Positions 1,683 through 38,935 of a stretch of DNA of 44,430 nt are shown here, in pieces; position 1 is the stretch's first letter, and every line of letters starts with the position of its first letter. The position numbers and the translations under genes were made by a program. Source of the DNA: a virus; IMG/VR virus record IMGVR_UViG_3300000553_000081, positions 1 through 44,430 of that record; one strand, 5' to 3'. Under the pieces are notes generated by a model. The model did not search any database, was not told the DNA's origin, and worked only from the letters and a program-made list of their open reading frames with translations.

Positions 1683-4199
1683 TTAAGAACATTTAGAATG
1701 ACCACAATTTTTACATATTTCACAACCGTTTTCATAAATCATTTTTTCTCCACAATCTGGACATTTTTTTCCAAAATCACCATCTTTAATATATTTTTTA
1801 ATGGTTCTTTTAACACCAGCTTTCCAAGTTGAAATATTATCATCTGCAAACTTAAGATCATCAATTAAATCAACAACGTTCCTCAATGGCATACGGTGTC
1901 TTAGAATTGCACTAATCATCTTACCAACATTCCAAAATTCTGGATTAAACACCCGGTTTATACCTTGATAAATCTGAGAATAACCATCCTTATCTTTATA
2001 AACAAGATCATATCTAGATATATTATTTTCCTTACTCTTAACTATCTCTCCATGTTCAACATATTTCGGCAATATCATTGATTCTTGTGGACCTGTAAAA
2101 ATTTCATACGGTCTAAATTTATTATTACCATTTTTTATTAACCCTACAATACCTATCCAATCTTCTCCTTTATTTTTAAATCTATGAACATCACAAATTA
2201 AACTTTTTGGTCTTTTTGGTACATCTGTGTCAGAATAAATATCACTATTTTGATTTTTACTATTTTCATTACTTACCAATACTCCACTTCTACTACCCTC
2301 TCTATATATTGTAACACCCTTCAGACCCATTTCCCAACCTTTAAAATAGATATCACTAACAGTATCTGGAGTAACATCTGCTGATAAATTCAACGTACTA
2401 CTTATACTATGTGTAGTGTATTTTTGTATAATACTTTGCATTTTTATTCTTTTATACCAATCTATATTTACTGCGTCATTGTTAAAATATGGACTGTCCT
2501 CTATTTTCTTATTTTTATTTATATCTAAATATAATTTCAATTTAGGATGAAAAACATCAAACTCTATCCATTTATCACCGAGATCATCAATAAACATATA
2601 TTTATCATCATCAAGTACTTTTTTTCTTCTTCTATAGCTTAGCATGAAAACAGGTTCAATACCACTAGTTGTTTGTGTTAATAAGCTCAAAGATCCTGTA
2701 GGTGCAGATGTACTAATGGACACATTTCGCCTACCATATTTCATCATTCTTTTATAAATTTCTGGTAATTCATTTTTTAACATTAATATAAATTCTGATT
2801 GATTTTCAATTTCCGTATCAAACTCCATAAAAGAACCTCTTTCAATGCTCATATCTATAGATGAATCAAATTCAGCTTCACATTTAGTCTTGATTATTCT
2901 TTCAACAATATCCAATGATTCTTCACTATCATAATCATAACCCAATGCAGCAATAGTATCACCTAATGCAGTAAAACCTAATCCTGTTCTCCTACCATTT
3001 TTACCTATGTCATATAAAGATTTCCACGTTCTTCTTTCTACATCTTTAATGTAATCTGGTTCAACGTCACTGTCTATCTTTTTTAATATTTTTTCTATAG
3101 ATTCTAATTCTAAGTCTACTAAGTCATCATTTAACCTTTGTCCCTCATAAGATATTTCATACCATTTATTAAAATCAAAATTAGATTTATTTGTAAATGG
3201 TTCCTTAACACAAGAAAACATATTTAATGCTATCAATCTGCAACTATCATTACCCATTGAAATTTCAGCACACGGATTTGTGCTAATATTTTTATATTCT
3301 GGATATACAGACGATGTAGAATAATTATGATGTCTATCCCAAAAAATTAAACCTGGCTCTGCACTATTCCAAGCAGCCTTTATTATTTTATTCCATAATA
3401 ATTTTGCATTAATAGTTTTTGTTATTTTTGGATTTTTTGAATTTATTGGAAATTTCAAGATATAGTCTATATCATCTCTAACACATTTCATGAATTCATC
3501 TGATAGCTTTATACTAATATTAGCGCCTGTTACTTTTTTTAAATCTTGTTTAGAATTTATAAAATCTTCTATGTCAATGTGATTGACATCCATAGTTATC
3601 ATAAGAGCACCTCTTCTACCAGATTGAGCTACTTCACGGGTCGTATTTGAAAATCTATCCATAAATGACACAGCACCTGTGCTAGTTCCAGCAGCATTCA
3701 TAACTGATGTATCCTTAGGTCTCAATGTCGATAAATCTAATCCAACACCACATCTACGTTTCATCAATTGTACTAATTGTTGGTCAGCAAAACAAATTCC
3801 ACCATAAGAGTCAAAAATTTCAGGTATAACTATACAGTTACTTAGACTACTAATGTTGTATGGATTTCCAAGAGACGCCATAACACTACCTTGTGGAATA
3901 ATATATTTAAAATGATCAAGATAATTAAATATTTTTTCTTTAGTCAAAGGTTCTCTTTTTTGACCATACTCACTCAATGAATTGATCTTCGAATTATCTA
4001 TCTTATATGATTTTTCTATTCTATAAAATTCATCAGACATTCTATTATGCATATCAATCGGAGATTTTTCAACTATATCACCATTTTGGTTTTTTAAACT
4101 ATATTTATTAATCCATACGTCCGTCGATAACTCATCATCATCAAAATATTTCATAACATATTCTTTTATTTCTTCCCTTGTATAAACTTTATCGTTCAT
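1683..4199 (-). CDS. nrdJ: Adenosylcobalamin-dependent (class II) ribonucleotide reductase
   Basis: This 838-residue enzyme reduces ribonucleotides to deoxyribonucleotides for phage DNA synthesis. The class II active site is visible: C122 (NCIVIP), the NPCAEI motif with N308, C310 (thiyl radical) and E312, and C320 as likely partner of C122. APTGS and TSGIEP lie in the barrel. The C-terminal tail carries four-cysteine zinc-ribbon pairs (CPDCG, CEICKNCG) and a final HSKCS, as in vitamin B12-dependent NrdJ. NPC rather than NLC argues against class I, and no small subunit gene is present. The start overlaps the stop of the upstream endonuclease gene by four bases, suggesting translational coupling. 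The gene is intact, with no intein in it, unlike the neighbouring ATPase genes. Oxygen-independent activity would need host B12. Confidence 0.92.
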   Translation of the reverse strand: MNDKVYTREEIKEYVMKYFDDDELSTDVWINKYSLKNQNGDIVEKSPIDMHNRMSDEFYRIEKSYKIDNSKINSLSEYGQKREPLTKEKIFNYLDHFKYIIPQGSVMASLGNPYNISSLSNCIVIPEIFDSYGGICFADQQLVQLMKRRCGVGLDLSTLRPKDTSVMNAAGTSTGAVSFMDRFSNTTREVAQSGRRGALMITMDVNHIDIEDFINSKQDLKKVTGANISIKLSDEFMKCVRDDIDYILKFPINSKNPKITKTINAKLLWNKIIKAAWNSAEPGLIFWDRHHNYSTSSVYPEYKNISTNPCAEISMGNDSCRLIALNMFSCVKEPFTNKSNFDFNKWYEISYEGQRLNDDLVDLELESIEKILKKIDSDVEPDYIKDVERRTWKSLYDIGKNGRRTGLGFTALGDTIAALGYDYDSEESLDIVERIIKTKCEAEFDSSIDMSIERGSFMEFDTEIENQSEFILMLKNELPEIYKRMMKYGRRNVSISTSAPTGSLSLLTQTTSGIEPVFMLSYRRRKKVLDDDKYMFIDDLGDKWIEFDVFHPKLKLYLDINKNKKIEDSPYFNNDAVNIDWYKRIKMQSIIQKYTTHSISSTLNLSADVTPDTVSDIYFKGWEMGLKGVTIYREGSRSGVLVSNENSKNQNSDIYSDTDVPKRPKSLICDVHRFKNKGEDWIGIVGLIKNGNNKFRPYEIFTGPQESMILPKYVEHGEIVKSKENNISRYDLVYKDKDGYSQIYQGINRVFNPEFWNVGKMISAILRHRMPLRNVVDLIDDLKFADDNISTWKAGVKRTIKKYIKDGDFGKKCPDCGEKMIYENGCEICKNCGHSKCS

Positions 4200-5080
4200 T
4201 TCAATTTATTATTTTTTAATTTATTTTCAAGTTTTTTGTTTATATTATCATCATATGAAATTCTACATAACTGTATATTATTTTCTAAACAAAAATTATT
4301 TTTAATTGAATCATGTTTTTTTGTATAATTTAAATTATTCCAATTCAAAACTTCATAAAAATGTTGCTCACCGTCATATTCAACACACATATTATATTCT
4401 GGCAAATAAAAATCGAAAGGCAATTTATTTTTATCTCTACAATGCTCAAATTTTTTTTGTCTTTCAAAGATAATATTATTATTAATTAAATATTTCTCTA
4501 TAACTCTCTCACCTTTACTCTCATCACAAAAAGGACAACCATGACCCCTCAAATGATTATTTAACATTTGTTTAAATTCTTTATGTTTTGGACAAATTAT
4601 TAATATTTTATCCCTTGTTCTGTTAAATTCAGATAAAGAATAATCATATTTATTATTATGAACCGTATTTAATTTTTTTATGATTTCATCTTTATTTTTT
4701 TTACAATTCGGTGCACATTTTGGACAACCCTTTCCTATCAAATGATTTAATGTTATTTGTTCGAAATCACCATGTATTAAACATCTTATTTGAGATTTAT
4801 TATACATTCCTCTATATTTAAAATTTGTATAATCATATTTATCACCATGAATTTTTTTAAATTTATTTATAATGTCTATTTCATTTAACAATTTGCCACA
4901 TCTTTTGCAACCACATCTTTTATGATTAATAGGAGTTTGATTAAATATACCATGAATAGGACATATTATTTTTATTTTTGTATGCGCATTCTTATAATCA
5001 ACTAAACTATAATCATAATAAAAATTATGTTTTATTGACACCTCCATGATATATTTATCTACATCTCTCTTTTTACTCAT
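4196..5080 (-). CDS. Free-standing homing endonuclease, zinc-repeat (DUF723-like) plus nuclease domain
   Basis: The 294-residue protein has three imperfect repeats of about 60 residues (roughly 8-185). Each follows the scheme YDYS, then I.ICP.HG.F.Q, then H, then GC..C, a treble-clef-like zinc-binding module seen in phage homing endonucleases. The C-terminal part (about 186-294) carries LPFDFYLPEYNMCVEYDGEQH, a PD-(D/E)XK/Vsr-like nuclease core, followed by a conserved I.YD.N tail. It sits between an acidic unknown gene (1-base overlap) and nrdJ (4-base overlap) without breaking either. It is a mobile gene that would cut an empty allele nearby. Close relatives in this window are at 5729-6463 and the decayed copy at 38990-40125. 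Confidence 0.75.
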   Translation of the reverse strand: MSKKRDVDKYIMEVSIKHNFYYDYSLVDYKNAHTKIKIICPIHGIFNQTPINHKRCGCKRCGKLLNEIDIINKFKKIHGDKYDYTNFKYRGMYNKSQIRCLIHGDFEQITLNHLIGKGCPKCAPNCKKNKDEIIKKLNTVHNNKYDYSLSEFNRTRDKILIICPKHKEFKQMLNNHLRGHGCPFCDESKGERVIEKYLINNNIIFERQKKFEHCRDKNKLPFDFYLPEYNMCVEYDGEQHFYEVLNWNNLNYTKKHDSIKNNFCLENNIQLCRISYDDNINKKLENKLKNNKLK

Positions 5081-5742
5081 TATATAAAATTTATATTATT
5101 AAGGTTATCTAAATAACCAGCATGTTTCAATTCTATTATTATTTGTGTAGCATATTCTTTATCTAATAATTTAAACATATTAAATATATTGTCTGTGAAA
5201 TAGTAAGACAATTCTACAAAAATTTCTGATTTTGTATATTCCTTACCAATGTTATCAATTAACATTTTATAATAATCATTAAATGCTTGACGATTAGGCT
5301 TCCTTCGGTTACATGAAAAATCTAATTCTGTTTTTTCACTCAACATTTTATGTACATCTTTTGATAAGTTTTGCCGATTAACATAATCCTCATTATGTTT
5401 ACTTTCAAATTCATAATTTGTACCAACTTCTATTGGTAAACCATCATTAATATTAATATCATCTTGTTGTATATTAAAATACTCATCAACTTGATTTGGA
5501 TCTTCGTCAATTTTACCCTTGAAAATAGTATCTCGTTTGAGAGCATGTTTACCTTCTATTTTATGATTATTAGTATTAAATTTAAACATAATATCAACGT
5601 CAGATTGTTCGCTATCATCTTCCTCCACTGAAGATTCTAATATACTATCATCAACTGTGTCATCATCTTCAACACTTATAGTTTCTTCTATATCTGAGAT
5701 ATCTTCGCTTAAATCATCATCTAAAAATTCATCTTGATTCAT
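5080..5742 (-). CDS. Acidic protein of unknown function in the replication block
   Basis: I do not recognise this 220-residue protein. Residues 1-50 are extremely rich in Asp and Glu, the middle is polar and probably disordered, and the last 85 residues look folded and helical (a stretch around CNRRKPNRQAFNDYYKMLID). It is bracketed by two homing endonuclease genes, overlapping one by 1 base and the other by 14 bases. It lies between the helicase and nrdJ genes, so a role in DNA replication (for example as an acidic partner of a helicase or polymerase) is possible but only contextual. Confidence 0.6.
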   Translation of the reverse strand: MNQDEFLDDDLSEDISDIEETISVEDDDTVDDSILESSVEEDDSEQSDVDIMFKFNTNNHKIEGKHALKRDTIFKGKIDEDPNQVDEYFNIQQDDININDGLPIEVGTNYEFESKHNEDYVNRQNLSKDVHKMLSEKTELDFSCNRRKPNRQAFNDYYKMLIDNIGKEYTKSEIFVELSYYFTDNIFNMFKLLDKEYATQIIIELKHAGYLDNLNNINFI

Positions 5743-6463
5743 TATTTAAATTATTTTTTAAAAAATATAATTTTTCATTAATATTTTCATTATATTTAAT
5801 TCTTATCAAATTAATATTATTTTTTTCACAATAATCATTCTTTATCTCATCTCGTTTCTTAATTAAATTAAAATTCTTTTCTCCTCCAAATATTTTTATA
5901 CATTTATAATGCTGCAAACCATCATACTCTATACAAATATTTAATTCTGATAAATAAAAATCGAAAGGTAATTTTAATTTATATTTACAATCATCAAATT
6001 TTTTTTGCTGTTCAAAACTTATGTTGTTATCAATTAAAAAATTTTTTATTATTTTTTCTCCTTTAGATTCTTTACAAAAAGGACATCCACATCTCAAATG
6101 TATATTCGGTGTTTGTTCAAACTTTAAACCGCATTTTTTACAAATAATTAATATCTTAGTGTGTGCATTTTTATAATTCATTAATGAATAGTCATATTGA
6201 TAATTATGAAAATCATTAAAATCATTAATAATCTTAATATTATTTTTTCTTTGAGTAATTTTAAATTTTTCTTCTCCACACTTATAACAACCAACACCTC
6301 TTAAATGTGAATCTGGTCGTTGCTCAAATTTACCATGTTTTTTACATATTATATCAACATTAGATTTATTATTTTTATAATCCAACAAAGAATAATCATA
6401 AACAAAATTATGAATTAAATTAGATTTACTTACAAATTGATCTTTTGTTAATTTTGTACTCAT
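5729..6463 (-). CDS. Free-standing homing endonuclease, zinc-repeat (DUF723-like) plus nuclease domain
   Basis: The 244-residue relative of the 4196-5080 protein has two rather than three zinc-type repeats (about residues 9-62 and 75-132; HG.F.QRPDSHLRG..C.KCG and CG..FEQTPN..LRCGCPFC). The nuclease part has LPFDFYLSELNICIEYDGLQH and a C-terminal IRIKYNEN. Its start codon is two bases downstream of the stop of the helicase C-terminal half. Its 3' end overlaps the acidic gene by 14 bases. It is presumably mobile, and the conserved neighbourhood suggests that its target lies in this replication block. Confidence 0.75.
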   Translation of the reverse strand: MSTKLTKDQFVSKSNLIHNFVYDYSLLDYKNNKSNVDIICKKHGKFEQRPDSHLRGVGCYKCGEEKFKITQRKNNIKIINDFNDFHNYQYDYSLMNYKNAHTKILIICKKCGLKFEQTPNIHLRCGCPFCKESKGEKIIKNFLIDNNISFEQQKKFDDCKYKLKLPFDFYLSELNICIEYDGLQHYKCIKIFGGEKNFNLIKKRDEIKNDYCEKNNINLIRIKYNENINEKLYFLKNNLNNESR

Positions 6464-6465
6464 GT

Positions 6466-7548
6466 TTATTTTGCTCCTACCAAAACATCATTTTCCATGG
6501 TTAGAAATTTTGTATTAAAATCAAATCTAACTTGTTCCTCATGATGCTCACCATCTCTTAATTTTAATATTTTTAATCTGTAAATATTATTTCGCTTCAT
6601 TTCAGGATTACGAATTATACCCCACACAGAATCAGATGTATCAGCAATTGCCTTACTTTCTGGTATATCACCAAGTTTTATATCTGACGCACCCCAAACT
6701 GCCTTATCTGTCTGTGTTGCTGTAATCACAGCACATTCATATTTATCTGCAATTCTTCTCAATCCTTCTGCTAAATGTTTTCCTTTCAAATAAAGCATAT
6801 TAGTTATTTCATATCCTTTTTCAATAGACATAATATTAATATAATCGACAATTACCATTCCCACTTTGAGTCTTTTAACTTCTTCAAATTTTTTGATATA
6901 ATTATCTATATCAGTTACAGTACAGTCACTTGTATTATATTTTTTAACAAAAATTTTACCTGGCTGTGAATCAAATAAATTTCCAACCGTTGATTGTGAT
7001 TTTAAATTATTTAATTTCTGTTTCATGAAAGTCGAATCTTTTGATTTTTCATCATATTCATCTGAATTGATTTTTAATCTCATAGAACCTAACCTTTTCA
7101 TAACTTTTCTAGTTGCCATTTCTAGTGTTATAACCAATACATTAGCACCAGCATTTGCAGCATTAGTTGCTATATTATGAAGCCACATGCTATTATGGCT
7201 TAATATATCATTAGTATAAAATCTATGATTTATATCTTCTAATTGTAAATCAAACATATTTGATTTTTTATCAGAATTATAACATTTACAAACTACTTCT
7301 AAACCATTTTTAGTTTGTATTTTATCACCTACTATTAAATCTTTAACAAATATTTCATTCATATTTTCATCAAAAACAATATGAGTATCAGCACATGTTA
7401 AATTACAAGTTTGTGTTATTAAAATCCATTCATCATATTCAATAGTTTTTCCGATAGCTTTAATATCTGACCAACCTGAGTCAGTTTCAACTTCCCATTC
7501 ATCTATTTCTATTGTTTCTATAAATTTTCTATCAAATGTCATTCTCAT
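6466..7548 (-). CDS. Replicative DnaB/gp41-type helicase, C-terminal half fused to split-intein C-part
   Basis: Of 360 residues, 1-119 are the C-terminal part of a split intein: block B-like LTCADTHIVF, block F around DLQLEDINHRFYTND, and block G ILSHN ending in N119. The C-extein begins at S120 with SMWLHNIA, which continues the Walker A motif GETNVGK of the protein encoded at 8713-9435. The remainder is a RecA-fold helicase core: Walker B-like VGMVIVDYINIM, the ITATQTDK segment of motif H3, and a C-terminal RLKILKLRDGEH region. Joined by trans-splicing, the helicase would be 446 residues, close to T4 gp41 (475). Without splicing neither half has a complete P-loop. A Vsr-like endonuclease gene lies 4 bases upstream. 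Confidence 0.88.
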   Translation of the reverse strand: MRMTFDRKFIETIEIDEWEVETDSGWSDIKAIGKTIEYDEWILITQTCNLTCADTHIVFDENMNEIFVKDLIVGDKIQTKNGLEVVCKCYNSDKKSNMFDLQLEDINHRFYTNDILSHNSMWLHNIATNAANAGANVLVITLEMATRKVMKRLGSMRLKINSDEYDEKSKDSTFMKQKLNNLKSQSTVGNLFDSQPGKIFVKKYNTSDCTVTDIDNYIKKFEEVKRLKVGMVIVDYINIMSIEKGYEITNMLYLKGKHLAEGLRRIADKYECAVITATQTDKAVWGASDIKLGDIPESKAIADTSDSVWGIIRNPEMKRNNIYRLKILKLRDGEHHEEQVRFDFNTKFLTMENDVLVGAK

Positions 7549-7552
7549 TAAT

Positions 7553-8671
7553 TTAATTTTTCAAAAAGTCTATACATTGCTGTAAAATTTGCTGCTTCTT
7601 TCTATTGAAATCATCTTCCCATATTATTAATACATCAAATCCAACTTTTTTGATAGCATCTATTCTTATCTTATCTTTATCCCAAACTTCATAAGCAAAC
7701 ATTTGAAGATATTTATGAAAATAATTTGAATTATAATATTTAGGATTACAATGCCAATAATCACCATTAAATTCAATTAATTTTTTGCCAAAAACAAAAT
7801 CATATGAAAAAGTTCTACCCAAATCTGGGAAATATCTGAAAAATTGATCATCCCCATAATGAACTTTATCCTTTATTTTCAATTTATTTGATAAATAATC
7901 AAACAACTCAATTTCGCCCTTAGAATAAGGCTCTTTTGTAAATCTTGTAAATTTACCTTGTTTATATAAATCTTCAACTTTAGCACTCCACTTTTCTTGT
8001 CTATTATTGAATATTTTTAATCCTTCCTCCTCACCATATTTATCAATACAACTTTTTAAAGTAAATGTTCTTTGTCTTTCCTTTATTTTTTCTTTTGCTT
8101 CATCTTCCGAAAAACCTTTTTTCGTCCAATATCCTATTTGAGTTGTATTTACATCTTGATATAATTCAGGATTATTTCTTCTTTTATCCCAAGTTTTTTG
8201 ATGTATATCATTAAAAATATCTTCAACTTTTTTCTTAGCATCATCTTCTGTATATCCTCTCTTTAACCAAAATTCAACACATTGACGGGATTTTTCCTTA
8301 AAAAAATCTTTATTCTTAATAAAACTTTGATCTAATGATTTTTTTATTTTTTCACCTCTTTCCTTTGCTTTTTTAATTGTCATTAATAATGCATCTTTTT
8401 TAGACAATCCATATTTATACATTAAAAATTCAGGAGTTCCAGTTGCTCTTGTTTTACCTAAACATTCTCCAGATTTACATATTCTGTGATATCCTTTAGA
8501 TATATCTTTAAAGATCGCATCATCACCACAAAAATAACATTTCCCCTCGTCTTCTTTTTTGAGATATTTATCATAATAATCTTTCTTAGATACATCTTTA
8601 TGTTCTTTAGATAAATGAACAGACAAACCAACAATAGAATCAAATTTTTTATCACACAATTTACATTTCAT
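7553..8671 (-). CDS. Vsr-like homing endonuclease between the helicase halves
   Basis: The 372-residue protein starts with a C2H2-like finger (CKLCDKKF..L..HLSKEH, residues 3-24) and a second cysteine group (CYFCG, C..GECLG). The middle has repeated modules of the type YWTKKGFSEDEAKEKI, probably DNA-binding. The C-terminal domain (about 255-372) is Vsr-like: YDFVFGKKLIEFNGDYWHCNP, then a W.KD.IR..AIKK.GF strand and VLIIWEDD. It has its own TATATATA-type promoter-like sequence upstream (8686-8700). It probably mobilises the helicase intein by cutting intein-free helicase genes. The closest relative here is 25615-26598, in the same position within the AAA+ gene. Confidence 0.82.
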   Translation of the reverse strand: MKCKLCDKKFDSIVGLSVHLSKEHKDVSKKDYYDKYLKKEDEGKCYFCGDDAIFKDISKGYHRICKSGECLGKTRATGTPEFLMYKYGLSKKDALLMTIKKAKERGEKIKKSLDQSFIKNKDFFKEKSRQCVEFWLKRGYTEDDAKKKVEDIFNDIHQKTWDKRRNNPELYQDVNTTQIGYWTKKGFSEDEAKEKIKERQRTFTLKSCIDKYGEEEGLKIFNNRQEKWSAKVEDLYKQGKFTRFTKEPYSKGEIELFDYLSNKLKIKDKVHYGDDQFFRYFPDLGRTFSYDFVFGKKLIEFNGDYWHCNPKYYNSNYFHKYLQMFAYEVWDKDKIRIDAIKKVGFDVLIIWEDDFNRKKQQILQQCIDFLKN

Positions 8672-8685
8672 AACAATCTTTTATT

Positions 8686-8700
8686 TCTATATATAAAATA
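8686..8700 (-). promoter_or_regulatory. Promoter-like TATATATA element before the helicase-locus endonuclease
   Basis: On the minus strand this reads TATTTTATATATAGA and ends 15 bases before the endonuclease ATG. It lies inside the fractured gene, so the endonuclease may be transcribed independently of the helicase N-half. Confidence 0.4.
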
Positions 8701-8712
8701 AGAGAAACCAAT

Positions 8713-9435
8713 TTAGGACTTTTTATTTTTCATTAAATTAAAAAATTCACCGATAGTAATTTCCTTTATTTCGCCTGTTTTTTTGTTTCTAATTTTTATT
8801 GGTGTGTCTGATTTTGAGCACTTACCAACATTTGTCTCTCCCATAATTACACTCAATGTAGATTTGCTCCATCCGCCACCTAGAATAGAATCCACGCAGG
8901 ACCATCCTGACGGTATACAATTTTTACTAACCAATTGTTTATGTGATTCTGGATCATCAAAATCTGAACCTAAGTCTTGGTCGTCATCATCTACCAAAAG
9001 AACATTTCCAAACATTCCTTTTAATTTTTGTGCTATTTCTACCACATTGTCATATGTAACTTCGTCTAGTCCTCTAACCATATCAATACCCTTGATCATA
9101 TCACCTTTAATTTGGTTTTGAATTTTCCAACTTTTAAATCTTGGCACAAGCCATTCTTGACTTATGTCACTATTATCTGATTGTAATAATAATTTAACAA
9201 CTTTATCATTAATTTTATTATCTTGATCGGATAATTTGACCATAGAATAAATTTGTTGTATGCTAGGTACTATATGACTTTCACTCTTTAAGTATTCTTC
9301 TCTAATAACAGTGTATATAAATTGTATGTCTGAATTTTTAAAAAAGAAAGGTTCTACTTTGGAAAACTGATCAGGATTATCTATAATATAGATAAAATAG
9401 TGTTTTTCCATATTGGTATTCATCACTTCGGCCAT
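8713..9435 (-). CDS. Replicative DnaB/gp41-type helicase, N-terminal half fused to split-intein N-part
   Basis: Residues 1-160 form the helical N-terminal domain typical of hexameric DnaB/gp41 helicases. An acidic linker (DDDDQDLGSDFDD) follows, and then the start of the ATPase core with SGWSCVDSILGGGWSKSTLS and the P-loop GETNVGK ending at K205. C206 begins a 35-residue intein N-part that ends at the stop codon. The partner is the ORF at 6466-7548, which begins with the intein C-part and continues with SMWLHN. The gene starts 18 bases downstream of the recA C-half stop, in the same operon. The P-loop is interrupted exactly between the invariant Lys and Ser, so this polypeptide alone cannot hydrolyse ATP. 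Confidence 0.87.
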   Translation of the reverse strand: MAEVMNTNMEKHYFIYIIDNPDQFSKVEPFFFKNSDIQFIYTVIREEYLKSESHIVPSIQQIYSMVKLSDQDNKINDKVVKLLLQSDNSDISQEWLVPRFKSWKIQNQIKGDMIKGIDMVRGLDEVTYDNVVEIAQKLKGMFGNVLLVDDDDQDLGSDFDDPESHKQLVSKNCIPSGWSCVDSILGGGWSKSTLSVIMGETNVGKCSKSDTPIKIRNKKTGEIKEITIGEFFNLMKNKKS

Positions 9436-9453: not shown

Positions 9454-10167
9454 TTATTCGAAAAGTTTATCATCATTATTTAAATCAAACTCTTCTTGAG
9501 ACATCATACTATCTTTATCTTCTATTTCATTTAATCTTTCGTCTACTTCTTCCAGTTCCTTAAGGCATTCATCATAGGTTGGATATTTAAAATACTCATA
9601 AATAATTGGATCCATTGATTTTAAGACTTCTGGTGTAAATACCTTCCTATTAAAGAGTTGTTTTTCAACTAAAGTTTTATCTAAATGCTTTACAAACCAA
9701 CGATTAGAAGGTTGATAAGTAATTTCTCCTGTTTCTTTATCGATAACCTTTTTAGCTTGTGCTATCCCAATTTTATCAAAATTCTCCATTGTGCAAAATA
9801 AATCTAGACCTTTATAAGGATTAATACCTTTGCTATAATCAATTTCAAATTTAACTTTCTTAGGTTTTGCTAATCTATTTTTAGCAGATCGTGCGGTGAT
9901 AATAGAGCCTGATCTTCCAAGATCCATTTCATCTTCTTCACCAGTTTTTAATTTTGCATCACTTAATAATAATATAACACTTGCTGCGTAATATAAACCT
10001 TCACCACCACTCATAATAGTTTGTGGAAACATATCTTGTGTATTATGTGATACAATACCACCTTCTAAGATATAATGATGAACACCTTCAACTTGAATGT
10101 CATATGTTGTTTCAGTTTCTTCTAAATATTCAACTTTTGATACTTTAACCTCTCTAAATTTTTTCAT
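9454..10167 (-). CDS. uvsX: UvsX/RecA recombinase, C-terminal half fused to split-intein C-part
   Basis: Of 237 residues, 1-42 are a canonical C-intein (TYDIQVEG..HYILEGGIVSHN, ending in N42) followed by the +1 residue T43. The extein part resumes with TQDMFPQTIMSGGEGLYYAAS, the counterpart of the TQEMF..TVM.GG segment of T4 UvsX. It continues through GSIITARSAKNR and the GINPYKGL stretch to an acidic C-terminal tail, as in UvsX. Joined with the N-half (10325-11320) the recombinase would be 422 residues (T4 UvsX is 391). UvsX forms filaments on single-stranded DNA and drives strand exchange and recombination-dependent replication. The helicase N-half gene follows 18 bases downstream. Confidence 0.88.
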   Translation of the reverse strand: MKKFREVKVSKVEYLEETETTYDIQVEGVHHYILEGGIVSHNTQDMFPQTIMSGGEGLYYAASVILLLSDAKLKTGEEDEMDLGRSGSIITARSAKNRLAKPKKVKFEIDYSKGINPYKGLDLFCTMENFDKIGIAQAKKVIDKETGEITYQPSNRWFVKHLDKTLVEKQLFNRKVFTPEVLKSMDPIIYEYFKYPTYDECLKELEEVDERLNEIEDKDSMMSQEEFDLNNDDKLFE

Positions 10168-10639
10168 TTTTTCATATTATTTTTTTTTATTCCATTTATT
10201 ATAATCCTTTTTATTTATGATTATAAACTCAAAACAAATTCCATTATTAATGCTGGAGTTTTTCTTAAGATTATTAATTGCAATATCTGAATTATATGTG
10301 TATTCAGATTTAACTTCATATATTTTATTTTCGCTCAATAGGTTTTTCATCAACAGCTAAAATTATATCTTTATCTGTTAAATCTTCTGCTTTTTTCCAA
10401 CATTCATTATTTTCATCACTGACCCAATCAGGTTTTACTAAAAATTTGTGTTGAGGTGTACATTTAATTTTTTCTCCGGTTTCTAATGTTATTTGAATTA
10501 TTGGACTTTTAGGATATTTAACCGTTTTAGTGATAATTTTATCACCTTCTAATGTTTGTATATAATCACCAATCATCAAATTTTCTATTAATTCAGAATT
10601 ACCATCAGCCTTGATTACTTTGTGACCGGCAGTTAAACA
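10042..10639 (-). mobile_element. Canonically split intein in recA/uvsX
   Basis: The N-intein is at 10325-10639: 104 residues, C1 right after NHVYL, block A CLTAGHKV, block B-like IKCTPQHKFLV. The C-intein is at 10042-10167: 42 residues ending VSHN, +1 residue Thr. The exteins rejoin as NHVYL|TQDMF, which aligns with NHTYQTQEMF of T4 UvsX, so the boundaries are well supported. The 104 + 42 split resembles gp41-1/NrdJ-1 type split inteins and differs from the two P-loop inteins in this window. The 157 bases between the two ORFs hold a relic of an endonuclease gene. Confidence 0.87.
10177..10350 (-). pseudogene. Relic of a homing endonuclease C-terminus between the recA halves
   Basis: A 57-codon frame (MKNLLSENKIYEVKSEYTYN ... 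NNGICFEFIIINKK ...) overlaps the end of the recA N-half by 26 bases in another frame and stops 9 bases before the C-half start codon. The phrase KIYEVKSEYTY, then a C..F.F.I strand, resembles the last 50 residues of Vsr/PD-(D/E)XK-type phage homing endonucleases (core E-V-K-S motif). No upstream part is present, so the gene has probably been deleted down to this tail. The family call rests on motif memory. The location, exactly where intact endonucleases sit in the other two fractured genes, supports it. Confidence 0.6.
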
Positions 10640-11320
10640 TAAATACACATGATTCGTACAAACTAATGGTATGTTCAAGTATCCTAAATCATTTGTAATA
10701 AGTCTAACAAGAGATTTAATTTGTTTTGCGCGGGTCATATCTTGTTTAACATCTAATTTAAGAGTATCAGCCTTTTCTTTTTCACTTGATAACATTCCAA
10801 TAGAATCAAGAAAGAAAATAGTTTTTGATACATCTGTACCACTATCTTTAAGTTTTTGTAGTGCGTCCAAAAATGACATCATGAACATTTTTATTTTTTC
10901 TACAATATTAGTTCTAATTAGCATAAATTTATTTGGATCAACAGTATCTATACCATACATATCAAAATCACTTTTTTCAATTGAATATTCAGTGTCGATC
11001 CAAACTATATTATATCCCATTTTTTGAGCATTTCTTGCAATATTCAAAGAAATAAAAGATTTACCTGTCTGTTTAGGTCCAGCTATAATTGTAATTTTAT
11101 TATTTGGTATGCCACCTTTTAAAATACTTTTAGATAGAAGTGCATCAAGAACATGAATGCCTGTGGAAATAAAAGTTTTTTCTTTCTCAAAATCTTCAAT
11201 TGAAATAATATCTTTTTTTGAAATATTTTCTATAAGATTAGATATTTTAGAAAAATCAAATTCATTTGATTTTTTTGTTGAGACATTTTTGGATATCGAT
11301 GCTTTTGTCGTCTTTGCCAT
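10325..11320 (-). CDS. uvsX: UvsX/RecA recombinase, N-terminal half fused to split-intein N-part
   Basis: Of 331 residues, 1-227 are RecA/UvsX extein. They comprise a Ser/Lys-rich N-terminal tail, STGIHVLDALLSKS, Walker A GPKQTGKS (81-88), a WIDTEYS segment, Walker B TIFFLDSIG (167-175) and the strand PLVCTNHVYL. C228 starts a 104-residue N-intein that runs to the stop codon. The P-loop is complete in this half; the break is after the NHVY motif, so the split differs in place from the helicase and AAA+ genes. The gene is the first of the minus-strand operon and starts divergently from the ORF at 11454. The partner half is at 9454-10167. Confidence 0.88.
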   Translation of the reverse strand: MAKTTKASISKNVSTKKSNEFDFSKISNLIENISKKDIISIEDFEKEKTFISTGIHVLDALLSKSILKGGIPNNKITIIAGPKQTGKSFISLNIARNAQKMGYNIVWIDTEYSIEKSDFDMYGIDTVDPNKFMLIRTNIVEKIKMFMMSFLDALQKLKDSGTDVSKTIFFLDSIGMLSSEKEKADTLKLDVKQDMTRAKQIKSLVRLITNDLGYLNIPLVCTNHVYLCLTAGHKVIKADGNSELIENLMIGDYIQTLEGDKIITKTVKYPKSPIIQITLETGEKIKCTPQHKFLVKPDWVSDENNECWKKAEDLTDKDIILAVDEKPIERK

Positions 11321-23144: not shown

Positions 23145-23540
23145 ATTTTCCGTTAAATATAGATGGGCTTGATGTTGAAATTATAAAACTTGATATTCAA
23201 CAATTTGGTAATAACTCTACAAAAGTTCCAGGAAATCAATCTATAAAAATGATTGGATTAGTTGCAAATAAAGATTATATGAAATTAGAAGGTTGGTTTA
23301 ATGGTGTATTAGGAAGAAATTATTTACCATCATATTTACCATCATCTCCAGCAACTTATAAAAAAATATAATTTTCAACACCATTCAAATTATGGGAATA
23401 TTTCCATTTATACTTTTAATCAATCAGGTATTGAAGTTGCATTTTCAGTTGATTACCTAAGTGGTGATTTAGAATTATTCAAAATTCAAAGATTAAGAAA
23501 AGAAAAACTCAAAAAATTAAACTCATTAAGTAATGTCTAA
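23141..23540 (+). CDS. Hypothetical protein with an apparent frameshift at a run of seven A
   Basis: The first frame runs from ATG 23141 to a stop at 23369-23371 (76 residues, ending SPATYKKI). The +1 frame continues without a stop from the A7 run (23360-23366) to 23540, reading YNFQHHSNYGNISIYTFNQS, then GIEVAFSVDYLSGDLELFKI and a basic end. The codon use and hydrophobic pattern are those of a real gene. Removing one A would give a single protein of about 132 residues. The end of this second frame overlaps the next gene's ATG by 8 bases, as normal for this genome. Either a sequencing or mutational indel, or slippage at the homopolymer, restores the full product. Function unknown. Confidence 0.6.
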
Positions 23541-24507
23541 AATATACATTATCAGCAATACACATTTTAATATTCAAAAAAATCTTTCTGGAAAAGAATG
23601 GTTAAAAAACATGGACTACTATTTCTATAATGAATTTTTGCCATATTTAACTAAAACGGTGCAACCTAACGACATTTTAATTCATTTAGGTAACTTTCTA
23701 TACAAATCAAAATCGATTGACCTAAACTCGTTAAAATTCATCCAAGAACTTTTTGAAAAAATTGCATCTATATTACCTGTTTATATTATAGAAGGAGAAA
23801 ATGATAATCTGGGATTAAATATTTTGAAAAATTTTAATAATATTGAATTTATAAAAGAACCAAAGCAAATTGAAATTTTACTATCACAAAAATTTACAGT
23901 ATTACCCAATAGCACAAAAATTGAAGATATTGATCAATTTGAATCAGATTATTGTTTCTTAAATATAAACTATCTTAATTCACCGAAAAAGGATATAATT
24001 GTCAGTAAATTAAAGAAATTTAAGAAATGTTATAATGGCTACTATGATAAAAATAGTGTAACAGGGCAAATTAAAAATTTAGGATCACCGTATAATATTG
24101 AGGGTGATGATAAAAAAGGATTTATTATATTAGATGCATATGAAGACAAAGATAAATTTATACAGAATAAACTAAGTCCTAATTTCAAAAAAATATCTAT
24201 TGAAAAAGAATCTGATCTAAATATATCTGATGATGTTTTTAAGAATAATTATGTGAGTTTAACGATAAATAAGCGACTTTTGTTAGACAATAAACTAAAA
24301 ATTGAGATGTTAATCAGCGAGCATGAAATCACCTCTGTAATCTATTCTGATGATGAAATTTTAAAAGATAAGGAAGAAATTACTTTAAATGAATCATCAT
24401 TATCCTTAAATGAAATGGTGATTGATTATATTAATCAATCACCATCCGAGAACAAGAAAAAAATTCTTGAAGAGTTTAAAAATATTGTAGAACTTAATCA
24501 GAAATAA
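23533..24507 (+). CDS. gp47/SbcD-like protein with degenerate metal-binding site
   Basis: The 324-residue protein follows T4 gp47 (SbcD/Mre11-type nuclease subunit) from end to end. It has the N-terminal strand then HF (IISNTHFN), LIHLGNFL, IIEGENDN, the capping part NLGSPYNIEG..KKGFIILD, and a C-terminal helix (SLNEMVIDYINQSP) like that of gp47. Almost every metal ligand is changed, however: SDxH is SNTH (N9), GD is GN (N54), GNHD is GEND (89-91), and GHxH is GYYD (169-172). It is therefore probably catalytically inactive, perhaps a structural or regulatory paralogue of an active copy elsewhere in the genome. No gp46 partner is in the window. Confidence 0.7.
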   Translation: MSKIYIISNTHFNIQKNLSGKEWLKNMDYYFYNEFLPYLTKTVQPNDILIHLGNFLYKSKSIDLNSLKFIQELFEKIASILPVYIIEGENDNLGLNILKNFNNIEFIKEPKQIEILLSQKFTVLPNSTKIEDIDQFESDYCFLNINYLNSPKKDIIVSKLKKFKKCYNGYYDKNSVTGQIKNLGSPYNIEGDDKKGFIILDAYEDKDKFIQNKLSPNFKKISIEKESDLNISDDVFKNNYVSLTINKRLLLDNKLKIEMLISEHEITSVIYSDDEILKDKEEITLNESSLSLNEMVIDYINQSPSENKKKILEEFKNIVELNQK

Positions 24508-24782
24508 TCAAATATTATATTTTTTGCATCTTTTTTCATGATATATGTATCAATATAAAACTTTGCATCGTCTATATCAATTTTATTATACTCACAAAAA
24601 TCAATTAATTCTTTATTTGTAATAACAGAAAAATCATCTCCATGTAGTGTAGTAAAATACCTTATCACTTTATCTTCATTTGTTAATTTTTCCCAATCAT
24701 CAACAAATTCATGTGAAAACGATGGTCTTCCGAAAGGATCTCTATCTATATCTATCTCGTTTAGTTTTTTTATATGTTTCAT
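24498..24782 (-). CDS. Hypothetical protein
   Basis: The 94-residue acidic protein begins MKHIKKLNEIDIDRDPFGRP, a start that weakly resembles the capsid-targeting-like N-termini of the 28-31 kb genes. The rest is helical (ELIDFCEYNKIDIDDAKFYI). It overlaps the AAA+ C-half stop codon by 1 base and the convergent gp47-like gene by 10 bases. Function unknown. Confidence 0.55.
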   Translation of the reverse strand: MKHIKKLNEIDIDRDPFGRPSFSHEFVDDWEKLTNEDKVIRYFTTLHGDDFSVITNKELIDFCEYNKIDIDDAKFYIDTYIMKKDAKNIIFDYF

Positions 24783-25642
24783 TAATCATTTCCAGGGATT
24801 TGAAATCCCATTTTTTTTGTTGTTACATCACTATCAATCAACTGTTTACCAGTTTTTTCTTCATAGATTTCTGCAAGAGTTTTAGGTTCAGTATATTCCT
24901 TATTTAAACCAATATGTTTAGAAAGTTTAGTTGCTTGAATTGCAGTCAATTTTTTAAATTTATAATCAACCATCAATCTTCCTTTGCGAAGTAATGCTTC
25001 ATCAATAATTTTTTTATTGATATTAAATGTTGCAATTATTTGCATATCCATATGATCATTCAATAAACCATCACTAATATTAAGAATATTTGTTACGGCT
25101 TGTGTTCTTTCTTCCTGTGATGATGTTAAAATAGATTCAGCATCTTCTAATAAAAGAATAGAATTTCTAAATTTAGAAATAAATGAAATCAATTCAGGAT
25201 TAGCAATATCCCACATAAAATATGAAGGTACATAAATAATAGTTTTATCTTCTGCAAGATCAGTAACAAGTTTACGAATTAATGTTGTATTATGGCTTAA
25301 AATTCCATTTGTATAATATTTACAGTTATTCTCACTTAACTCAAAATCCCACATTTCTTTTTCGTAACCACAATTTATAACATCTAAAATCTCTTCAATT
25401 CCATCAATTGTTTTTATTTTATCACCTAAAACTAAATCTTTTACAAAAATTTCTTCATCATTTTCTAAAAAAACCTTATGAAAATCAGCACATTTTAATT
25501 CTTTATTTTCTAAAATTAAATTAAAAACTTGATATGGTATAGTTTTATGTAATGCCACAACATCTTTAAATCCCTCGTCTGTTAATATTTCATAATCAGA
25601 TATAATCTTTGAACTTATAAATTTTTTATCCATTCTATACAT
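24782..25642 (-). CDS. AAA+ ATPase, C-terminal half fused to split-intein C-part
   Basis: Of 286 residues, 1-118 (or 4-118 if the second Met is used) are an intein C-part: LKCADFHKVF (block B-like), DFELSENNCKYYTN (block F, with Cys where His is usual) and GILSHN ending in N118. The extein starts at T119 with TTLIRKLV, completing the Walker A motif GDPGTGK of the ORF at 26649-27386. Then follow Walker B SILLLEDAE, sensor-1 IIATFN and the RKGRLMVDYKF arginine-finger region, as in BCS1/spastin-like AAA+ proteins. The spliced protein would be 383 residues. Its start overlaps the end of the endonuclease gene by 28 bases. Confidence 0.86.
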   Translation of the reverse strand: MYRMDKKFISSKIISDYEILTDEGFKDVVALHKTIPYQVFNLILENKELKCADFHKVFLENDEEIFVKDLVLGDKIKTIDGIEEILDVINCGYEKEMWDFELSENNCKYYTNGILSHNTTLIRKLVTDLAEDKTIIYVPSYFMWDIANPELISFISKFRNSILLLEDAESILTSSQEERTQAVTNILNISDGLLNDHMDMQIIATFNINKKIIDEALLRKGRLMVDYKFKKLTAIQATKLSKHIGLNKEYTEPKTLAEIYEEKTGKQLIDSDVTTKKMGFQIPGND

Positions 25643-26598
25643 TTATTTTTTATTTTTTCTTTATCTTTTTTATAATCATTTTCCCATATTATAAGAATTT
25701 CAAAACCTTTTTTTTCAATTAAATCAATTCTTTCATAATCTCTCTGCCATATTTCTTCAACTTTGAAATGTTTATATTTACTACCTACTATTTTATCAGC
25801 ATCATATAATTTTGGATTGCCATGAAAATAATCACCATAGAATTCTATGATTCTATTTTCACACATAAAATCAATATAAAAGCAAAAATATTTTCCTTGA
25901 TCATCATAAAATTGGACTATTTTTTCATTCTTACCATAATAACATTTTTCATTAATATTTTTTTCAATTTCTACAAATAATTCTATTGATATTTTTGAGT
26001 ATTTATTAAATCCACTTTTTCTAAGTCCATTCTTTATATTATTAATTCTTTCTGTATATTTTTCTATACCAAATTTATTAATTAGAGTCTCTTTACTACT
26101 ACCTATTTTTTTAGATTCTATATTCTTATTAAAATTTTCTTGACCATGCTTTTTAATAAATTGCTCTTTAGTTAATCCTCTTTTTTTATTTAAATCATAT
26201 TTGTCATTATTGTTATTTAATGTTTTTTGCCATTTTTCTTGTCTATCCTGATAAACTCGTCTACCTTCAATTTCACCATATTTTTTAATACATGTATCTA
26301 TTGTAAATGTTGTTTGTCTTTCTCTTAATTTTTCTTTTGCCGTTTCAATATCATATCCTTTATTTAACCAATAATCTAACCTAGTTGGATTAGGTTTGTT
26401 TTTTTGATCAACTTTAGTAGCATTATTTTTTTGAATCTCACTTATTTTTTCCTTCGCCTCAATTTCTGTTAAACCTTTTCTTATCCAGAACTCAACACAA
26501 TATCTATTAGTTCGTTCTTTTAAATCTTTAATTTTTTCCTTAGCTTCATCTTCACTCATTCCTTTATTTATCCAATGTTCAATATTATAATAATTCAT
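25615..26598 (-). CDS. Vsr-like homing endonuclease between the AAA+ halves
   Basis: The 327-residue protein has repeated modules with a W-x-x-K-G-x-[ST]-x-x-E-A-K-E-K-I pattern (for example WINKGMSEDEAKEKI at residues 9-23, and WIRKGLTEIEAKEKI), probably DNA-contacting. A C-terminal Vsr-like nuclease follows: CFYIDFMCENRIIEFYGDYF, HGNPKLYD, then W.RDYERIDLI.KKGFEILIIWEND. It lacks the N-terminal zinc finger of the helicase-locus enzyme but is otherwise its paralogue. The stop lies inside the start of the C-half ORF (28-base overlap), so reinitiation could couple the two. It probably spreads the AAA+ intein. Confidence 0.82.
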   Translation of the reverse strand: MNYYNIEHWINKGMSEDEAKEKIKDLKERTNRYCVEFWIRKGLTEIEAKEKISEIQKNNATKVDQKNKPNPTRLDYWLNKGYDIETAKEKLRERQTTFTIDTCIKKYGEIEGRRVYQDRQEKWQKTLNNNNDKYDLNKKRGLTKEQFIKKHGQENFNKNIESKKIGSSKETLINKFGIEKYTERINNIKNGLRKSGFNKYSKISIELFVEIEKNINEKCYYGKNEKIVQFYDDQGKYFCFYIDFMCENRIIEFYGDYFHGNPKLYDADKIVGSKYKHFKVEEIWQRDYERIDLIEKKGFEILIIWENDYKKDKEKIKNKCIEWIKNL

Positions 26599-37490: not shown

Positions 37491-37511
37491 GAAAGGTCTT
37501 AACGACCTTTC
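37491..37511. terminator. Bidirectional terminator between bS21 and rtcB
   Basis: GAAAGGTC, loop TTAAC, GACCTTTC. On the minus strand it is followed by eight T, so it ends rtcB well. On the plus strand a weaker ATTTTTC follows for the bS21 transcript. It overlaps the rtcB stop codon. Confidence 0.8.
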
Positions 37512-38935
37512 ATTTTTCTCATTTCTCTACGGTTTCTTCTATCATCTTTTTCTTTATCCGTTCTATGTTTTTTAAGATTATAGTCAACTGGTAATTTTCC
37601 TTTTTTTTCTAACTCTTTTTTTTGTTTCCACGATAATTCTTTACCAGTATCTTTAACATTCCAGATAGGTTTTATTCTATCTAATATGGTAGCAGTTGGT
37701 TCAATTAATTTTTCAATCATTTCTGAGTTTTTATATGCGAAAACAGATTCATCAACAGTTTCTTTACAAACTGACGTAGTATAAATACCTTTCATAGATT
37801 TTTTTACATCTTCTACTGAATATTTTTGTTTGGCAACAGAGCGACTTTCTTTTCTACCAGATCCATGTGGACCACTATTTAACCAATCATCATTAGATTT
37901 TCCTTCACATAATAAAATACCATCTTTTTGATTGAAAGGTATAATCATTTTTTGACCAACATAAGAAGCAATAGCACCTTTTCTTATAATCATATCTTTC
38001 ATATCAATATAGTTGTGAACAGTTGATATAACTTCATCAAAATTATCAACACCAACTATTTTTTGAATAATATTCAACATTGTCAATCTATTCCATTCTG
38101 CATATTTTTGCGCAAATATCATATCAAACAAATATCCAATCATATTTTCACCTTGCAAAAATTCTTTATTAACACCAATTTTATAATTATCTTTTAGTTC
38201 CTGTATTTTTTTAGGAATTAAATTTTTAGGAAAAGTATTTAATTTAATACTTTCTAATTCTTTATTATAGATCTCTGGTGCTATATTCATTTGAGATTTA
38301 GCAACATTGGTCCAATAATCAGCAATCTTAAGTCCGAAATTTCTTGAACCACTATGAATAGTAATCCAATAATCTCCATTAGAATCAATACCCAATTCCT
38401 GAAAATGATTGCCACCGCCTAATGTTCCTATTGCATTCCAAAATTTAGTTTCATCTATTTTAATAGATTTTAATTTACTAGATAACCATTTTTCATTAAA
38501 AATAGGTGCAACATAAGATGTATTAAATTTTTTATTATATTCTATTATAAATTTATCAGCAACCTTCTGAACATCATCAAAAGGAACAAATTTAAATACT
38601 GGTAACTTATGAATATTAAAACCCATAGGAATATTCATTTTAACTTCAGAATCAAATTTTTCTAAATTTATTTTATAATCACCTGAAAATCTAGCACTTA
38701 ACATACCACAACCTATATCAACTCCTATATGAGCGGTATTCAACATATTAGTCATAGGCATACAAAATCCGATACAAATTCCCTTTCCAACGTGAGTATC
38801 AGGCATTATCCTAATTTTCACATTTTCGGATACTTGCTGATCTAAAATTGATTGTATTAAAGTATATGCTTCAGATTCTATGTCATCTATAAAAATCTTA
38901 CAATCTTTATTATATTTTCCTTTTAATTCTATCAT
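37499..38935 (-). CDS. rtcB: RtcB RNA ligase
   Basis: The 478-residue protein shows the RtcB signatures: MPDTHVGKGICIGF with H48, HIGVDIGCGM with D73 and C76 (metal site), GTLGGGNHFQELG with the conserved NH, HSGSRNFG and GPHGSGRKESR near the guanylate site. The C-terminal 55 residues are very basic and extend past the usual end. RtcB joins 3'-phosphate or cyclic phosphate to 5'-OH RNA ends. In phages it can repair tRNAs cut by host anticodon nucleases. It is transcribed alone, with a strong terminator. Confidence 0.92.
   Translation of the reverse strand: MIELKGKYNKDCKIFIDDIESEAYTLIQSILDQQVSENVKIRIMPDTHVGKGICIGFCMPMTNMLNTAHIGVDIGCGMLSARFSGDYKINLEKFDSEVKMNIPMGFNIHKLPVFKFVPFDDVQKVADKFIIEYNKKFNTSYVAPIFNEKWLSSKLKSIKIDETKFWNAIGTLGGGNHFQELGIDSNGDYWITIHSGSRNFGLKIADYWTNVAKSQMNIAPEIYNKELESIKLNTFPKNLIPKKIQELKDNYKIGVNKEFLQGENMIGYLFDMIFAQKYAEWNRLTMLNIIQKIVGVDNFDEVISTVHNYIDMKDMIIRKGAIASYVGQKMIIPFNQKDGILLCEGKSNDDWLNSGPHGSGRKESRSVAKQKYSVEDVKKSMKGIYTTSVCKETVDESVFAYKNSEMIEKLIEPTATILDRIKPIWNVKDTGKELSWKQKKELEKKGKLPVDYNLKKHRTDKEKDDRRNRREMRKMKGR

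Follow-up and report, generated by a model that had tools for sequence, protein, structure and literature searches.

The replicative helicase of a virus known from a 44,430-nt metagenomic fragment (IMG/VR record IMGVR_UViG_3300000553_000081; this whole stretch is called the window below) is very probably encoded by a fractured gene. In our reading, a gp41-type helicase is interrupted at the Lys/Ser step of its Walker A motif by an intein with an atypical split, together with a free-standing homing endonuclease gene (HEG) that is probably of the EDxHD type, and splicing is predicted to give a product of 446 aa. The split intein almost certainly rejoins the helicase halves through the ATP-binding site by predicted trans-splicing. 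On the minus strand, the order is the N-terminal helicase half (N-extein) with the N-terminal intein part (IntN), the HEG, and the C-terminal intein part (IntC) with the C-extein, as follows (relatives are given by locus numbers beginning with L):

8821..9435, minus strand: helicase N-extein, 205 aa, ending in GETNVGK (Walker A without its Ser); phrog_19 DnaB-like helicase, E 7e-16
8716..8820, minus strand: IntN, 35 aa, Cys1 first; homologous to the beginning of the contiguous L044 intein and covering strands 1-2 plus helix 1 of the fold
7553..8671, minus strand: free-standing HEG, 372 aa, with an N-terminal C2H2-like zinc finger and a C-terminal domain of probable Vsr/EDxHD-type nuclease fold (Foldseek, phrog_22677, weak zf-C2H2)
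7192..7548, minus strand: IntC, 119 aa, with the block-B His in CADTH, ending in SHN
6466..7191, minus strand: helicase C-extein, 241 aa and stop, starting SMWLHN (+1 Ser); PF03796 DnaB_C, E 1.5e-17, and phrog_19, E 2e-43

The two open reading frames (ORFs) of the helicase read as a preliminary description of this DNA had claimed. The first (8713-9435, minus strand, 240 aa) follows the helicase to GETNVGK and continues with 35 residues, CSKSDTPIKIRNKKTGEIKEITIGEFFNLMKNKKS, and the second (6466-7548, minus strand, 360 aa) opens with 119 residues ending in SHN and resumes the helicase at SMWLHN. That description recognized the split helicase but missed the intervening 372-aa HEG, whose stop codon is separated from the IntC start codon by 4 nt; since this HEG lies between the two intein halves, the locus counts as a fractured gene. 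Both exteins belong to phrog_19, where they flank a single point (profile positions 157-366 and 368-578), and the 205 and 241 residues add up to the 446-aa product of gp41/DnaB type that had been proposed, with the GETNVGK/SMW junction completing Walker A. The window also holds the residues of a class 1 intein, namely Cys1, the block-B His, the terminal SHN and the +1 Ser.

The relatives of the helicase locate the insertion precisely. With the second ORF (IntC and C-extein) as query, the viral collection yielded 48 loci, and the comparison set was made up of distinct relatives having both exteins. The insert lies at the identical junction in 16 distinct loci, the window included, while in 15 distinct intein-free relatives the gene is continuous with 0 nt between the exteins, which bears out the claim of an interruption inside Walker A. 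This K/S site is a conserved one, with empty alleles at the exact junction; GETNVGKSMW is read uninterrupted in L144, and the spliced product of the window is 92% identical to the intein-free L017 protein, consistent with a complete P-loop after splicing. These junctions also bear on whether the insert could instead be an RNA intron carrying an HEG, with ends that resemble an intein by coincidence. Phage HEGs are frequent in group I introns, which speaks for this idea, but no Rfam family matched in the window, the junctions are exactly those of an intein at the protein level (Cys1, SHN, +1 Ser), and within the insert one ORF ends at a stop codon of its own and the other begins at its own start codon. 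We rejected an RNA intron as improbable in the extreme.

No Pfam or NCBIfam intein model matched the helicase intein, and it was demonstrated through its relatives and its fold. Such genes, overlooked by these models, are likely annotated as truncated helicases. The search of intein collections called for earlier gave a mixed result, negative with the Pfam and NCBIfam models and positive with profiles (VidaL, E 1.8e-10; gp41-1, 9e-8; DnaX, 9e-5; Cat, 1e-4; PolB16, 3e-4). For the fold, we used L044, a contiguous relative of 153 aa in a terminase gene, the predicted model of which has a mean pLDDT (predicted local distance difference test) of 93.1. This model has a HINT fold: Foldseek gave 61 matches in the PDB at E <= 0.001 with inteins at the top, the best being VidaL (6vgv, E 1.3e-11), and RadA, gp41-1, PolB16 and other inteins also among them. 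Its sole weak block covers residues 31-40, right after the helix at 23-31, and the break in the window intein coincides with this loop.

The intein parts show the marks of function. Cys1 is present in 68 of 68 scored loci, as is a +1 Ser or Thr, and the terminal SHN in 68 of 69, the remaining locus being cut by a contig end. Between the window and L003, the ratio of nonsynonymous to synonymous changes (dN/dS) is 0.16 for IntN, 0.25 for IntC and 0.09 for the HEG, so that, judged from these sequences, purifying selection acts on both the intein and the HEG. It could be argued that the HEG broke the gene, that the intein parts are dead and that the helicase halves work in pieces by associating non-covalently, for which the MobE-split NrdA of phage Aeh1 is a precedent (PMC3653736). 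However, every scored locus retains the catalytic residues of the intein, both intein parts are under purifying selection, and the P-loop Lys and Ser would be parted, with 35 extra residues on one side and 119 on the other, which a non-covalent complex would presumably hardly tolerate. We consider such a helicase in pieces very unlikely, and a working helicase would presumably require splicing.

The HEG matches phrog_22677 in sequence, with a weak N-terminal zf-C2H2 match, and contains LIEFNGDYWH, a candidate stretch for the catalytic E, D, H and D residues of EDxHD enzymes; its relatives carry two different kinds of C-terminal domain, and a direct PDB sequence search with it gave no useful match. 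In Foldseek, its C-terminal domain was closest to the catalytic domain of I-Bth0305I (3r3p; prob 1.00, E 0.076), followed by Vsr (1vsr), suggesting that the HEG is probably of EDxHD type. Compared with I-Bth0305I, an EDxHD homing endonuclease and the top fold match of this low-confidence model, the window HEG has an extra N-terminal zinc-finger-like part and sits between intein halves. A stand-alone phrog_22677 relative of this HEG is found at 25615-26598 (minus strand), in a region (24782-26598, minus strand) where it adjoins an ORF of no known function and an SbcD-like gene (23533-24507).

Two observations weigh against our interpretation. The fold assignment of the HEG is weak, its model having a mean pLDDT of 57 and no Foldseek match at E 0.001, and the window is a 44-kb fragment of a metagenome, so an intact helicase could lie elsewhere in the genome. 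The latter would suit an artefact of assembly or of sequencing, or a pseudogene in decay beside such an intact gene. Against this, the same split arrangement recurs in the 16 helicase loci, and the C-extein dN/dS against close relatives is ~0.03-0.05, equal for intein-bearing and intein-free ones. Furthermore, no second C-extein copy was found in the window, and a single copy is present in each of 12 related records (27-146 kb, all fragments or of unestablished completeness). An artefact or pseudogene therefore has little probability, about as little as non-covalently associated halves, and a spliced, fractured helicase gene is the reading we carry forward.

The distribution of the insert suggests that it moves. 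On the extein tree, the closest relatives of the window are the intein-free L017 and L018; well-supported branches require 4 or more changes between presence and absence of the intein, and bootstrap trees require 6-7. In the intein tree, a supported group (97) unites the 13 helicase inteins around the window. Between the window and L003, nucleotide identity is 85-95% across the IntN-HEG block (8850-7501) as against 68-86% in the flanking helicase halves, and the proportion of synonymous sites differing is 0.25 in IntN, 0.34 in the HEG and 0.41 in IntC versus 0.73 in the N-extein and 0.60 in the C-extein. These fewer synonymous differences imply that the insert is younger there than the divergence of the helicases; on this comparison, intein and HEG appear to have passed between phages more recently than the helicases diverged. 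GenBank helicases of Lak and uncultured phages of 541-735 kb are intein-free homologues, and on account of these large-phage homologues the window may derive from a large phage.

We propose the following mechanism. A mobile unit of split intein and HEG would have inserted at the Lys/Ser codon junction of Walker A, and the N-extein-IntN and IntC-C-extein precursors would be made as separate translation products of a single gene cluster. IntN, with strands 1-2 and helix 1, would then dock into IntC and complete the intein fold, presumably before class 1 splicing through Cys1, the terminal Asn and the +1 Ser, which in the cell would yield the 446-aa helicase, its P-loop restored. The endonuclease is predicted to cut intein-free helicase alleles of co-infecting phages, whereby the unit would be copied in.

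Compared with known inteins, the position of the break is shared with some and the sequence is closer to others. The S2 split lies after helix 1, as in AceL-TerL and GOS-TerL, whereas in VidaL the break follows strand 2 (S1) and IntN has 16 aa (PMC13014065). GOS-TerL is split 37+115 and AceL-TerL 25+104, and both have a +1 Cys (PMC11766414). The helicase intein (35+119) is, as judged on the L044 model, an S2-type atypical split unlike the S1 of VidaL. It resembles AceL-TerL, GOS-TerL and Cat in its S2 split and in the sizes of its parts (25-37 aa for their IntN, 104-115 aa for their IntC; PMC11766414, PMC13014065), but differs in its Walker A site and in having a +1 Ser (Ser/Thr in the family) instead of their +1 Cys. 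The atypical break near residue 35 claimed before was upheld, but the intein is not an AceL-TerL orthologue: membership of the AceL/GOS-TerL lineage was rejected on the +1 Ser of the window and the Ser or Thr, not Cys, of all 68 scored relatives, and VidaL and gp41-1 are nearer to the window family than Cat (a TerL consensus), whose profile match is E 1e-4. The AceL-TerL, GOS-TerL and Cat inteins sit at a terminase site other than Walker A. VidaL (6vgv), the best match by both profile and fold, shares the A-x-x-H block B and a short IntN, but has its S1 split and 16 aa against S2 and 35 aa in the window, and ~24% identity to the modelled relative L044. The gp41-1 intein is likewise split and likewise lies in a gp41 helicase (cyanophage-like), but its split is canonical, unlike the atypical one of the window.

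Fractured genes as such are not new. Dassa et al. are said to have described them in 2009 as conserved phage enzyme genes with a split intein and a free-standing HEG between the halves, reportedly canonically split in most cases; the window HEG lies instead at the N-proximal S2 position, and its target is Walker A K/S. In jumbo phage MIJ3, a replication gene is likewise broken by a split intein with an HEG between the halves, but that system differs in its target (PolB), its HNH nuclease and its intein (PMC6892783). The helicase split is a known kind of arrangement, and any novelty would lie in the pattern of the family.

We found the same intein family after the Walker A GK in four ATPases: the helicase, the terminase large subunit, the SbcC-like gp46 and the clamp loader gp44. 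The survey gave at least 141 distinct loci, a lower bound as no more than 80 per scan were taken; 115, nearly all from one viral collection, are split, 8 are in a single ORF and for 18 no IntN was found. With at least 115 distinct split loci in four Walker A ATPases, the atypical split class is not small in nature, contrary to what had been assumed. Jumps of the intein between host genes are plausible from the tree, which has 7 host-gene changes in its best version, although its starred branches demand no more than one in each group and 36 of its 73 inner branches are open. Two or more such inteins occur in the terminase genes of L047, L049, L072, L084, L102 and L111, at the Walker A site and at other sites, most of these with a +1 Cys.

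In some loci the HEG has decayed or been lost and the intein is still split, as in the helicase loci L011 and L013. Among 28 split loci with a gap of < 600 nt, which are not independent of one another, an HEG remnant was detectable in 17. At E 0.01, all 17 retain the HEG 3' end before IntC and 8 of them also a 5' piece, leaving 9 with the 3' end only and 0 with the 5' end only; the corresponding counts for one end only were 8 (3') vs 1 (5') at E 1e-4 and 10 vs 3 at 1e-6. Simulated 90-nt remnants were detected in 77/85 cases for the 3' end and 61/85 for the 5' end, so part of the 3' excess is a detection bias, which is only partly controlled in these loci. Loci with the HEG deleted and its 3' end kept directly before IntC are L011, L013, L049, L080, L082, L088, L104 and L160, and likewise L186, L189, L203, L219, L220, L223, L246 and L292. 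A Shine-Dalgarno-like motif stands at the IntC start in 43% of loci versus 12% in shuffles, and there is none in the window. The retention of the HEG 3' tail before IntC after HEG loss may explain why the genes stay split.

A few loci may have gone the other way. The terminase inteins L232 and L254 each lie in one ORF, with a 46-aa linker identical over its first 39 residues; at the DNA level, the linker corresponds to 5' sequence of the HEG read in a different frame, and L254 has Ile at the position of the IntC start Met. L232 and L254 are possibly re-fused split inteins; it is also possible that the linker is ancestral and that the HEG was later overprinted on it. L215 is a single ORF of IntN, 304 codons and IntC, with an overlapping frame that encodes a near-complete HEG matching residues 3-278 of 279 of the L083 HEG frame. 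L113 resembles a contiguous intein that holds an HEG in frame, but its HEG-like similarity lies in another frame, and it was left out of the simple contiguous inteins. We tentatively suggest, as an idea somewhat short of even probability, that a split-intein lineage specialised for Walker A Lys/[Ser/Thr] has spread to phage ATPases unrelated to one another (helicase, terminase, gp46, gp44), that splits persist after HEG loss since the IntC translation start lies in the HEG 3' tail, and that rare escapes occur by re-fusion with out-of-frame HEG DNA as the linker.

The UvsX gene, directly upstream of the helicase, is broken into 10325-11320 and 9454-10167 (minus strand) by a canonical split intein (104+42):

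10640..11320, minus strand: UvsX N-extein, 227 aa; phrog_97 UvsX, E 1e-46
10325..10639, minus strand: UvsX IntN, 104 aa and stop, canonical split; PF14890 Intein_splicing, E 3e-9, and TIGR01445 intein_Nterm
10177..10353, minus strand: UvsX HEG remnant, the 3' end, ~55 codons of a ~410-aa HEG
10042..10167, minus strand: UvsX IntC, 42 aa, ending in SHN; TIGR01443 intein_Cterm and PF14890
9454..10041, minus strand: UvsX C-extein, 195 aa and stop, starting TQDMFPQ; phrog_18112 recombinase, E 6.5e-12, and phrog_97 UvsX, 8e-6

An intact ~410-aa HEG is present in the UvsX relatives L005, L025 and L032, the intein is contiguous in L010, and most relatives are intein-free. By these sequence comparisons, UvsX is a second fractured gene, its HEG decayed, and it fits the same rule in having retained the HEG 3' tail.

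Two more endonuclease-like ORFs (4196-5080 and 5729-6463, minus strand; phrog_559 HNH endonuclease) are found nearby, one directly downstream of the helicase, and the presence of the one beside the helicase varies among relatives. The window also encodes a class II (B12-dependent) ribonucleotide reductase (1683-4199, minus strand) and an RtcB-type RNA ligase (37499-38935, minus strand), neither of which was matched by an intein model.

The 35-aa IntN may suit chemical synthesis and be useful for protein labelling. Close relatives provide a natural series of empty sites, splits with an HEG, splits with an HEG remnant and single ORFs, and this series at two adjacent genes makes the origin, persistence and reversion of split inteins directly testable. 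For these phages, replication would hinge on a helicase whose ATP-binding loop is completed by joining two proteins there.
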